From the NCBI RefSeq assembly GCF_003726095.1, contig NZ_CP026031.1, positions 186,001 through 250,000 on the forward strand: DNA of 64,000 bases. Reading direction: 5' to 3'. The notes under the pieces were generated by a model. The model did no database searches, was not told where the DNA came from, and saw only the letters and a list, made by a program, of their open reading frames with translations. Below are positions 17,927 to 28,192 of this stretch, piece by piece. The number at the start of each line of letters is the position of its first letter. Position 1 is the first letter of the stretch. The translations under genes and the position numbers were made by a program. The stretch is from Niallia circulans. GTDB lineage: Bacteria > Bacillota > Bacilli > Bacillales > Cytobacillaceae.

Positions 17927-17954
17927 GAAAAAAAGGCATCAAAAGCCTTCTTTC
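17927..17954 (-). terminator. Distal copy of the pepT terminator hairpin, with U-tract
   Basis: A hairpin with arms AAGGC and GCCTT extended by flanking A/T pairs. On the minus strand it is followed by TTTTTTT. It duplicates the hairpin at 18206-18232 that immediately follows pepT; the 251-bp element separates the two. Only this distal copy keeps the U-tract. Confidence 0.75.
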
Positions 17955-18205
17955 AGACTGTCGACAAACTCCTAATTCGGTAATTAGGAGTTTGTCTTAG
18001 TTTATAAATATACATTATTTTAAATAAGAGTTAATTTCCGTTGCAGGGGTTCGCTTTCCGTGGGGCTCGCGCTGAGACGCTTCTGCCTAAAGGCCTGCAG
18101 GGTCTCAGACTGTCTCGCAGATCCCACAGGAGTCTCACCCCTTTCACTCCAATCAATGCATAATAATTCCATTTACATTTCCTAAATTCCTTTTGTCAAC
18201 AAGCT
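17955..18205. mobile_element. 251-bp MITE-like element inserted in the pepT terminator (copy A)
   Basis: This non-coding element is nearly identical to 27909-28159, with nine differences counted by eye and no length change. It begins AGACTGTCGACAAAC and ends with the imperfect inverse of that sequence (11 of 15 matching), as terminal inverted repeats do. Inside are a 15-bp hairpin (17963-17996, arm GACAAACTCCTAATT) and a GC-rich foldable core (about 18040-18145) with CTGAGAC/GTCTCAG pairing. The flanks 17927-17954 and 18206-18232 are copies of the same terminator hairpin, a target duplication of about 27 bp. It encodes no protein, so it would need a transposase in trans; an IS1182-type source is my inference. 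Confidence 0.85.
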
Positions 18206-18232
18206 GAAAGAAGGCATCAAAAGCCTTCTTTC
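18206..18232 (-). terminator. Proximal copy of the pepT terminator hairpin, U-tract lost
   Basis: The same hairpin as 17927-17954, directly after the pepT stop codon at 18235. Its 3' side on the minus strand now runs into the element (AGCTTG) instead of a U-tract, so it should terminate poorly. Confidence 0.7.
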
Positions 18233-18234
18233 CT

Positions 18235-19467
18235 TTATCCACGTTCTTCAAATAGGCGGACAATTTCTACGATTACATTTGTTGCTTTTACCATGTTATC
18301 GACAGAAATGAACTCATATTTACCATGGAAGTTTTCTCCACCTGTAAAAATATTGGGAGTTGGCAATCCCATATAAGATAACTGTGAACCATCTGTACCA
18401 CCGCGAATTGGCTGAACAATTGGTGTAATACCGAGATTTACCATTGCTTGATAAGCTACATCCACAATTTCTTTTACGGGTTCAATTTTTTCCCGCATAT
18501 TGTAGTATTGGTCGTTTAATTCCAGTTTTACTGTTTCGGCACCATACTTTTCATTTAACTCCGCTACAATTGTCTGCAGGATTCTTTTTCTCTCTTCAAA
18601 AGAAGTACGATCAAAATCACGGATAATATAAGCAAGCTTTGTTTCTTCCACGTCTCCCTCAAAGGATAGTAAATGATAAAAACCTTCATAGCCCTCCGTA
18701 TATTCAGGTGCCTCATTTGCTGGTAAGCGGTTTTGTAATTCCATCGCTATTTTCATACTATTAACCATTTTTCCTTTTGCTGTACCAGGATGAACATTCG
18801 TTCCCTTCACTGTGATTTTTGCGCCAGCAGCATTGAAGCTTTCATATTGCAATTCGCCTAATGGCCCGCCATCAACAGTGTAAGCAAAATCAGCATTAAA
18901 GGCTTTTACGTTAAATTTATGTGGACCTCTGCCGATTTCCTCATCTGGTGTAAATGCCACTCTAATTTTACCATGTTTAATTGCTGGGTTTTCTTTTAAG
19001 TAAATAAGAGCTGTTACAATTTCGGCAATACCTGCTTTGTTATCTGCTCCTAGTAAGGTTGTGCCATCCGTTGTCAACAAAGTATGTCCTACGTAATTTT
19101 TTAATTCTGGAAAATCTTTAGGAGATAAAACGATATGTAAATCTTCGTTTAAGGTAATATCCTCCCCATCATAATTTTCCACTTTTTGTGGACGTACATT
19201 TTTACCTGTAAAATCAGTAGCAGTATCTAAGTGAGCAAGGAAGCCGATTGTCGGCACTTTTTTCTCAGTATTTGCTGGCAAAGTTGCCATCACATAACCG
19301 TTTTCATCAATCGTTACTTCTTCCATACCAATTTCTTTCAGCTCTTCCACCAATAAATTGGCTAATGTTAATTGTCCTGGTGTAGACGGACATTCTAAAT
19401 TATTTTCATTTGATTGGGTATCGACAACTGCATACGATACAAAACGATTTATTATATTTTCTTTCAT
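18235..19467 (-). CDS. pepT: Peptidase T (tripeptide aminopeptidase)
   Basis: A zinc-dependent M20 peptidase that cleaves the N-terminal residue from tripeptides in the cytoplasm. The 410 residues match the Bacillus enzyme. Metal-site motifs are GFLAHLDTA near 74-82, [14 protein letters not shown] near 134-147 and the catalytic [13 protein letters not shown] near 173-185, with a C-terminal [16 protein letters not shown] use the ATG at 19467, which follows GGAGTTGAATCGC; the in-frame start at 19506 lacks a ribosome site. Its terminator has been split by the inserted 251-bp element. Confidence 0.95.
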
Positions 19468-26618: not shown

Positions 26619-27872
26619 ATGTCTGTTAAAGAAAATTTTGAGCTGGCAAAAAAACAATATGAGCAATGGGGAGTAAATGTAGAAGAAGCATTAGAAAAGC
26701 TAAAGAATATCCCGATTTCAATCCATTGTTGGCAAGGGGATGACATTGCTGGATTTGAAGTAAATCAAAGAGAATTATCTGGTGGTATTGATGTAACAGG
26801 GAATTATCCTGGGAAAGCAACGAATCCGGAGGAATTAAGAAGCGATTTAGAGAAGGCGCTCTCACTTATTCCTGGAAGACATCGCGTGAATCTCCATGCT
26901 ATTTATGCAGAAACCAATGGGCTAGCCGTAGAAAGAGATGAGCTAGAGCCAAAGCATTTTGAAAATTGGGTGCAATGGGCAAAAGAAAATGGCTTAGGGC
27001 TGGATTTTAATCCGACTTTATTTTCCCATGAAAAAGCAGCTGATGGATTAACGTTAGCTCATCCAGATCAAGAAATTCGTGATTTTTGGATTCAACATTG
27101 TATTGCTAGTCGAAAAATTGCTGAATATTTCGGGAAAGAGCTCGGAACGCCTGCATTAACGAATATATGGATACCGGATGGCTACAAAGACATTCCAAGC
27201 GACCGTTTAACTCCAAGAAAAAGACTAAAGGATTCCTTGGATAAAATTTATGCTGTAGAAACAGATGAACGCTATAATTTAGATGCAGTAGAAAGCAAGG
27301 TTTTTGGAATTGGTTCAGAATCTTATGTAGTCGGTTCCCATGAATTTTACTTAGGCTATGCCTTGAAAAATAATAAATTATGCCTCATGGATACAGGTCA
27401 TTATCATCCGACCGAGACTGTTTCGAATAAAATTTCTTCCATGCTTTTATTTAGTGATAAATTGGCATTACATGTATCTCGACCAGTAAGATGGGATAGT
27501 GATCATGTTGTTATTTTAGATGATGAACTAAAAGAAATTGCTGTAGAAATCGTACGTAATGATGCATTAGATAAAGTAATTATAGGTCTTGATTTCTTTG
27601 ATGCAAGCATTAACCGCGTAGCAGCATGGACAATTGGTACAAGAAATATGATTAAAGCACTTTTAAATGCATTATTGCTTCCAAATGATAAATTAAAACA
27701 ATTACAAGAGGAAGGAAATTTTACAGAGAGATTGGCATTAATGGAAGAATTTAAAACATATCCATTTGGGGCAATCTGGGATTACTATTGTGAACAAATG
27801 GATGTACCGGTGCGTGAATCTTGGCTGAATGAAGTGAAAGTGTATGAGGAAGAAGTTCTATCCAAAAGATAA
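26619..27872 (+). CDS. rhaA: L-rhamnose isomerase
   Basis: It converts L-rhamnose to L-rhamnulose, the entry reaction of the pathway, using manganese in a TIM barrel. The 417 residues match the family. Diagnostic stretches are [17 protein letters not shown] near 29-45, [23 protein letters not shown] near 126-139, [11 protein letters not shown] near 182-192 and [16 protein letters not shown] [13 protein letters not shown] near 257-269. The start follows AAAAGGAGGACACAAAC. Rhamnose mutarotase rhaM, often in the same cluster, is not seen here. The 3' side carries a terminator split by a mobile element. Confidence 0.97.
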
Positions 27873-27880
27873 AATAAAAA

Positions 27881-27908
27881 GAAACCACTCTCAACCGTGA
27901 GTGGTTTC
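27881..27908 (+). terminator. Proximal copy of the rhaA terminator hairpin, U-tract lost
   Basis: A 10-bp stem (GAAACCACTC with GAGTGGTTTC) directly after rhaA. It runs straight into the element (AGACTG) with no U-tract. It is repeated exactly at 28160-28187. Confidence 0.8.
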
Positions 27909-28159
27909 AGACTGTCGACAAACTCCTAATTCAGTAATTAGGAGTTTGTCTTAGTTTATACATATACATTCTTTTAAATAAGAGTTGATTTCCGTTGCAG
28001 GGGTTCGCTTTCCGTGGGGCTCGCGCTGAGCCGCTTCGCCCTAAAGGCCTGCAGGGTCTCAGACTGTCTCGCAGATCCCACAGGAGTCTCACCCCTTCCA
28101 CTCCAATCAATGCATAATAATTCCATTTGCATTTCCTAAATTCCTTTTGTCAACAAGCT
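27909..28159. mobile_element. 251-bp MITE-like element inserted in the rhaA terminator (copy B)
   Basis: The second copy of the element at 17955-18205, same length and same orientation on the plus strand, about 96 percent identical by eye. The host here is a different terminator with an unrelated sequence, and again the full 28-bp hairpin is duplicated exactly on both sides. That shows the element moves and duplicates its target, rather than carrying the hairpin itself. It contains the same 15-bp hairpin near its left end and the same GC-rich core (about 27994-28099). Confidence 0.87.
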
Positions 28160-28192
28160 GAAACCACTCTCAACCGTGAGTGGTTTCTTTTT
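28160..28192 (+). terminator. Distal copy of the rhaA terminator hairpin, with U-tract
   Basis: An exact repeat of 27881-27908 followed by TTTTT. It is the working half of the original terminator, now 250 bp further from rhaA. Confidence 0.8.

Follow-up and report, generated by a model that had tools for sequence, protein, structure and literature searches.

The element behind pepT is, in our reading, a MITE of a distinct clade of the IS1182 family whose members duplicate the whole DNA hairpin into which they insert; for the observed facts together with the MITE identity, we put the probability at about 0.9. The window (the whole 64,000-nucleotide stretch of DNA that was analysed) corresponds to positions 186001-250000 of a 5.18-Mb genome on a single contig. 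Within it, the element we call copy A is non-coding, 253 bp long, and runs from 17954 to 18206 on the + strand. We placed its limits at CAG...CTG, the boundary common to its relatives, and the 251-bp element given in the initial annotation (17955-18205) is thus two bases short. The element has what characterizes a MITE: it is short, does not code for protein, ends in inverted repeats, lies between target duplications, and can be linked to a plausible autonomous relative.

Copy A interrupts the terminator of pepT (peptidase T; 18235..19467, - strand; TIGR01882, 677.4 bits), leaving a 25-bp terminator hairpin on either side. The right copy (18207..18231) adjoins pepT and has a perfect 9-bp stem; the left copy (17929..17953) is distal to pepT and differs from the right one by a single mismatch. 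The direct repeat around the element spans 26 nt with one mismatch at a spacing of 278 bp, and the target duplication, first estimated at about 27 bp, is 25 bp. The left terminal inverted repeat, CAGACTGTCGACAAA (17954..17968, + strand), is common to IS1182-family ISs; the right one, CAGCTTGTTGACAAA (18192..18206), is read on the - strand, and the two are identical at 12 of 15 positions, imperfect as had been described. The other internal parts predicted are also there: a perfect 15-bp subterminal hairpin (17963..17996, + strand), which overlaps the left terminal repeat and scores as terminator-like in the inward direction, and a structured, GC-rich core about 127 nt long (18030..18157, + strand), which recurs within certain autonomous ISs and, on its own, in relatives. 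Folded as DNA, the copy A region is far more stable than its shuffles (z -6.85, with 0 of 100 shuffles equally good), and no Rfam family reached its gathering score in a scan of the window. There is no transposase gene in these 253 non-coding base pairs, so we class copy A as a non-autonomous relative and not as an IS.

A second copy in the same window, copy B (27908..28160, + strand), lies behind rhaA (L-rhamnose isomerase; 26619-27872, + strand) and is flanked by two identical 26-bp hairpins (left, 27882..27907; right, 28161..28186). Copies A and B alike carry the terminal repeat CAGNNTGTNGANAAA at both ends. An empty site is found in G012, a genome of the same genus whose pepT is 99% identical; behind this gene the element is absent, and one 25-bp hairpin stands between flanks that match those of the filled site. 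Subtracting the G012 site from the filled site leaves the element plus one extra hairpin, apart from a few point differences. Because the empty site has one hairpin, the hairpin was duplicated upon insertion, and was neither replaced nor double beforehand. The site of copy B in G012 also lacks the element and has one hairpin, which has diverged.

A BLAST search with the element against its own genome returned at least 39 matches (with scoring of 40 of 54 initial candidates), and eight more copies of the element stand there at 94-98% identity. Of those 39, ten arise from the internal hairpin aligning with itself, and in two cases a single copy had been split over two rows; after clean-up, 27 places are left, several of which are truncated or contain the core alone. 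For the end pattern AGNNTGTNGACAAA, this genome has 39 occurrences, as compared to 11 for the reversed control. We assembled 17 two-ended copies, 16 from the 27 places plus a 149-bp variant (L060) from the end-pattern search. In 14 of the 17, the left flank matches the right flank with a score above all 272 mismatched left-right pairs, and at every one of these 14 targets the hairpin has AAAA by its left foot or TTTT by its right foot. Most of the other two-ended copies in the genome thus sit at terminator-like hairpins that have been duplicated, as was seen at pepT. The three exceptions are a copy with the left hairpin only (L004), one with part of the right hairpin (L014), and one that is decayed (L009). 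Hairpin pairs are also visible by eye at two truncated copies outside the scored set, L011 and L016. The genome has no intact IS1182 transposase in a search with NF033551, which found one remnant (E 3.1e-6), and a PF13751 search gave one sub-threshold match only; the element is therefore probably immobile there now.

To look for autonomous relatives, we searched 61 genomes, including its own, with the model for IS1182-family transposases (NF033551), which gave 30 loci. A transposon family sharing the ends of the MITE does exist: elements with the same ends were found among these loci in other genomes, and they are IS1182-family ISs. The two transposases tested, those of L094 and L092, match NF033551 at 485.6 and 488.1 bits (cut-off 270) and contain Pfam DDE_Tnp_1_6 and DUF772; a sequence search of solved structures with the L094 transposase found none at E 0.01. 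All seven complete ISs that we inspected among them (L091, L092, L094, L095, L096, L110, and L111) have a hairpin on both sides, and perfect duplications of 21-25 bp flank eight of nine stretches from the genome G047, the exception being L121. At one of the seven, L092 (G010:C77), the terminator hairpin that the IS entered adjoins the right end of a MITE, so that a single terminator was used repeatedly.

We then took the best 80 of 430 confirmed loci from a scan of named genomes and looked for repeats beside the transposase gene in a manner blind to the ends. In the 77 of these best 80 of 430 that remained after three at contig ends were dropped, direct repeats of at least 13 bp were present in 63 and of at least 18 bp in 60, as compared to 44 and 2 of 1522 mismatched pairs. 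Adding to the best 80 of 430 the seven ISs, one Vibrio plasmid copy (these eight having been selected because both ends were seen), and the nine G047 stretches yields 97 loci, of which 74 show a duplication that abuts CAG/CTG exactly: 58 of the 80, seven of seven ISs, the one Vibrio plasmid copy, and eight of the nine G047 stretches. The duplications in these 74 IS loci (best 80 of 430 included) are 16-35 bp long with a median of 25; the two copies have zero mismatches in 72 of the 74, the first base is A and the last base T in 60, and the 74 targets are 74 distinct sequences. The other 23 of the 97 (again including the best 80 of 430) are without a junction-exact duplication, and many of them have no recognisable end or stand at a contig end. 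L167 has a repeat in the end-blind search and falls outside the junction-exact count for a coordinate reason. L159 looks like a nested insertion. At L196, L197, and L201 both IS ends are present with a different hairpin on each side, which could reflect recombination between copies. Taken together, the empty site, the genome copies, and these foreign transposons exclude chance as the source of the repeat around copy A; they also bear out the original proposal of a mobile element inserted in a terminator with duplication of the entire hairpin.

Other branches of the family behave differently. A uniform repeat test was applied to 21 of the 30 NF033551 loci, leaving out nine fragments or partial loci. 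The hairpin repeat was present in the seven ISs and absent at the truncated L107, and in 12 of 13 loci of other IS1182 branches there was no repeat of at least 15 bp, with the left flank limited to 171 nt at L104; the thirteenth, L112, has only 5 nt of left flank. L102 and L106 have repeats of 13 and 14 bp that are not exact hairpins at the ends. Likewise, ten copies from two further branches (ends GAGGCTGGGACAAAA and TGAGTCAATTTCATAAG) lack any repeat of at least 11 bp within 60 nt of their ends; a Staphylococcus ISSau3 copy with ends GAGGCTGGGACAT has no repeat at its flanks; and a second Staphylococcus IS1182 transposase locus has no such repeats, its transposase being, like that of ISSau3, longer than 550 aa and outside the clade. 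At the Vibrio plasmid copy, on the other hand, the ends are near-CAG-type and a 19-bp hairpin is perfectly duplicated. In a maximum-likelihood tree of 41 transposases (26 duplicating and 15 not), the trait maps to one change with support of 96/98 and in 94% of 200 bootstrap trees; the label 'no' here means that no repeat was detected at a threshold of at least 12 bp or at least 11 bp, depending on the locus. This tree leaves out L262, whose flanks lack a repeat, and L104 and L264, which have very long branches. When L112 (5 nt of left flank) and L218 (labelled from the end-blind search only) are also removed, the 39 rows still give one change, with support of 84/96 and in 84% of bootstrap trees, and with L135 on a very long branch. 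Judging from these transposase sequences, a single origin of hairpin duplication is likely, though not secure, among the branches tested.

The MITE and the ISs share more than their ends in some cases. In four Bacillaceae ISs (L158, L162, L165, and L166), the GC-rich core is found as one copy just inside one end at about 77% identity, and it occurs as two inverted copies in L187, L096, L095, and L179 (for L095 and L179 with the variant L015 as query). The ISs of 1548-1576 bp gave no core match by BLAST. The core also occurs outside ISs, however, and the arms of the MITE have no match to ISs: in a BLAST search against the 74 ISs (best 80 of 430 included), none matches along both arms, and the matches beyond the core cover 19-30 bp of an end only and come from the variants L015 and L060, not from copy A. 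Hairpins with T-runs are visible by eye at one or both ends of 10 of the 12 ISs inspected (L094, L091, L175, and others), overlapping the terminal repeats; they possibly insulate the IS from outside transcription, and the MITE has a feature of this kind in its left hairpin.

The core itself (about 127 nt, GTTGATTTCCG...CCAATCAAC) is seen as a repeat in its own right, free-standing or within IS1182 elements (L066-L090), and mostly through it the MITE query matches 40 of the 61 genomes, including its own. An alignment of 24 core sequences predicts 32 pairs, 13 of them with double changes; the covariation term contributes only -1.53 of the -29.68 kcal/mol of the consensus fold. One locus, L067 (G005:C1:597716-598584), has four tandem cores at a spacing of 246-249 bp. 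In the host genome, L022, L023, and L028 have cores between different, CGCAGACTGAATACAC-like ends, which suggests a second repeat family using the same core.

What exactly is duplicated bears on two of the alternative explanations. The five outer pairs are all complementary, with G-T allowed, in 58 of the 74 IS targets (best 80 of 430 included), as compared to 0.7% of shuffled targets, and when the window is shifted by 1-6 bases only 0 to 5 of the 74 keep them. The duplication is therefore in register with the hairpin, and its length follows the hairpin, not a fixed ruler. Pairing continues outward beyond the duplication in 56 of the 74 IS targets (best 80 of 430 included), indicating that the cut falls in the A-T part of the stem and not always at the last possible pair. 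An ordinary transposase with a fixed stagger of about 25 bp, striking terminators as safe intergenic sites, would explain the median length in this set and the rarity of open frames at the junctions; however, the lengths range from 16 to 35 bp with both ends coinciding with hairpin ends, and a shift by a single base already lowers the count from 58 of 74 to 0 or 5 (best 80 of 430 included), so the register refutes this explanation and we allow it next to no probability. A stretch of A4 on the left or T4 on the right accompanies 69 of the 74 IS targets (best 80 of 430 included), as compared to 19% of random placements, and both are present at 39, as compared to 1.3%. A 300-nt frame is open to the junction at only 13 of 132 sides, from 12 loci (best 80 of 430 included), as compared to 61% of random windows; the count covers those of the 148 junction sides whose flank extends for 300 nt or more (16 are shorter), and the random windows include the transposase gene. 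With these tracts and so few open frames, the target sites are mostly terminators between genes. The tracts, together with those at the 14 duplicated targets of the host genome, would also suit a transposase that recognises the terminator through transcription, by way of a paused RNA polymerase or an RNA hairpin, instead of extruded DNA. Against this, five of the 74 targets (L147, L172, L178, L092, and L124; best 80 of 430 included) have no A4/T4 tract, though shorter T-rich runs lie near some of them, and the ends of the duplication keep the register of the palindrome, in line with cleavage of DNA at the hairpin's foot. We regard a route through transcription as unlikely, yet as having a real share of the probability.

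The remaining two alternatives deny either the duplication or the transposon. Had the inverted repeat been replaced, as in IS1272, the two hairpins would be an older tandem pair; IS1272 is of the same family and has terminator hairpins as its targets, according to the available parts of PMC5678879 and PMC4923244. In the case of copy A, G012 refutes this idea: its empty site has one hairpin between otherwise matching flanks. The idea fares no better with the ISs, where an identical hairpin lies on both sides in 72 of 74 loci (best 80 of 430 included). Moreover, ISSau3 and the second Staphylococcus transposase fall outside the clade, at loci without such repeats. We consider replacement extremely unlikely. 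Nor is the element likely to be primarily a regulatory RNA or a REP-like palindromic repeat: the core is conserved across 24 sequences and stands alone in relatives, as such a repeat might, but the 253-bp unit has IS ends, target duplications, and many dispersed copies, the core is also a module within some ISs, and the close relative G012 lacks the 253-bp unit at pepT. This makes a repeat of that sort very unlikely.

We therefore return to hairpin duplication by an IS1182-family transposase, for which we propose the following course of events. The MITE would be moved in trans by a DDE transposase of the hairpin-duplicating clade acting on its ends, CAGNNTGTNGANAAA and its inverse at the other end. 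The transposase may recognise an extruded hairpin or cruciform, or a single-strand hairpin, by its shape, or it may instead read the palindrome as duplex DNA. We lean, with modest confidence, towards a joining step in which, on each strand, one 3' end of the element attacks the 5' foot of the hairpin. At a four-way junction these two positions would be neighbours, although in the linear sequence the length of the entire hairpin separates them, and gap filling would then copy the hairpin to both sides. The gene-side hairpin now appears to run into the element and not into its own T-tract, and transcription entering the element may be stopped by the hairpin at its end. The host should tolerate such an insertion, with the site between genes and the T-tract retained by the distal hairpin, because of which termination has probably been moved rather than lost. 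Each insertion would also double the number of available targets.

The target duplications made by DDE transposases are normally short and constant in length. In this clade a whole hairpin is duplicated and the length varies, so that whether transposases read extruded hairpins inside living cells can be put to a direct test. Since IS1272, by published accounts, removes hairpins of this sort, the family offers two contrasting branches with which to find the determinant of joining polarity. Exact hairpin repeats around CAG...CTG ends provide an easy signature for annotating such elements, and the doubled terminators are a visible change behind host genes.

These results can be set beside what is known of the family. 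IS1272 and TnSha1, IS1182-family elements of Staphylococcus, resemble the present clade in having an IS1182-family DDE transposase and hairpin or terminator targets; in the portions of PMC5678879 and PMC4923244 available, these targets have no sequence consensus, several are confirmed terminators, and the IS1272 transposase is 548 aa long. The same sources report that IS1272 replaces or partly deletes the hairpin and makes no target duplication. The initial annotation was thus right to suspect a non-autonomous IS1182-family relative, given the shared ends, and needs correction as to IS1272. As that element is reported to remove the hairpin without a target duplication, the nearer kin lies in a different IS1182 clade; of the members named in the annotations seen, ISEfa7 comes closest. 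The present element, unlike IS1272, is flanked by two hairpins where the empty site has one, and 72 of 74 ISs (best 80 of 430 included) have identical copies. ISSau3, a Staphylococcus relative with a transposase of similar length to that of IS1272, falls outside the present branch in a tree that does not contain IS1272 itself.

In a tree of 44 transposases that includes L262, the transposase of ISEfa7 (IS1182-like, Enterococcus faecium; ends CAGACTGTAGACAAA/TTTGTCTACAGTCTG) falls inside the hairpin-duplicating branch, and it is about 55-56% identical to the query; unlike the MITE, ISEfa7 is autonomous and protein-coding. L262, the one annotated ISEfa7 copy inspected, shows no repeat shared between its left and right sides, and for enterococci the trait is therefore supported by other loci, L193, L194, and L198 among them. 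Closer to the MITE in their parts are L158, L162, L165, and L166, which have the same end type, the hairpin duplication, and the GC-rich core; they differ in being 1.74 kb long with a transposase gene, and the MITE arms outside the core gave no alignment to them in the BLAST search.

The targeting of hairpins by the IS1182 family is already known from the accessible parts of PMC5678879 and PMC4923244, the latter citing Siguier 2015 for palindromic targets, and the available text of PMC12056078 describes the family as having or lacking target duplication, with targets defined by sequence or structure. Whole-hairpin duplication as the regular mode of an IS1182 clade was not found described in the portions of the literature that our search covered; ISfinder and TnPedia lie outside that search, so prior notice is possible, and ISEfa7 did not occur among the matches listed. 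Duplication of a whole stem-loop was, however, drawn as an alternative, pathway b, in Fig 13 of PMC5678879, where the accessible text prefers attack at the 3' foot with removal of the hairpin. The transposons seen here look as pathway b, in the part of that paper available, would predict. A fuller picture, to which we give even odds, is that of an IS1182 clade spread across Bacillota and a Vibrio plasmid with a polarity opposite to that of IS1272: it would attack the 5' feet of the hairpin, duplicating what IS1272 removes, and so realise pathway b, multiply its own targets, and live in terminators that it leaves doubled, with terminator-like hairpins at its own ends and with MITEs riding on it.

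Bacterial MITEs in general, as described in the available parts of PMC10969869, are likewise short and non-coding, with inverted repeats, target duplications, and many intergenic copies. In those parts the term IS1182 is absent, and the passages on terminators are not about target choice. What sets the present element apart from the MITEs described there is that its duplication is a complete hairpin, and that its length varies.
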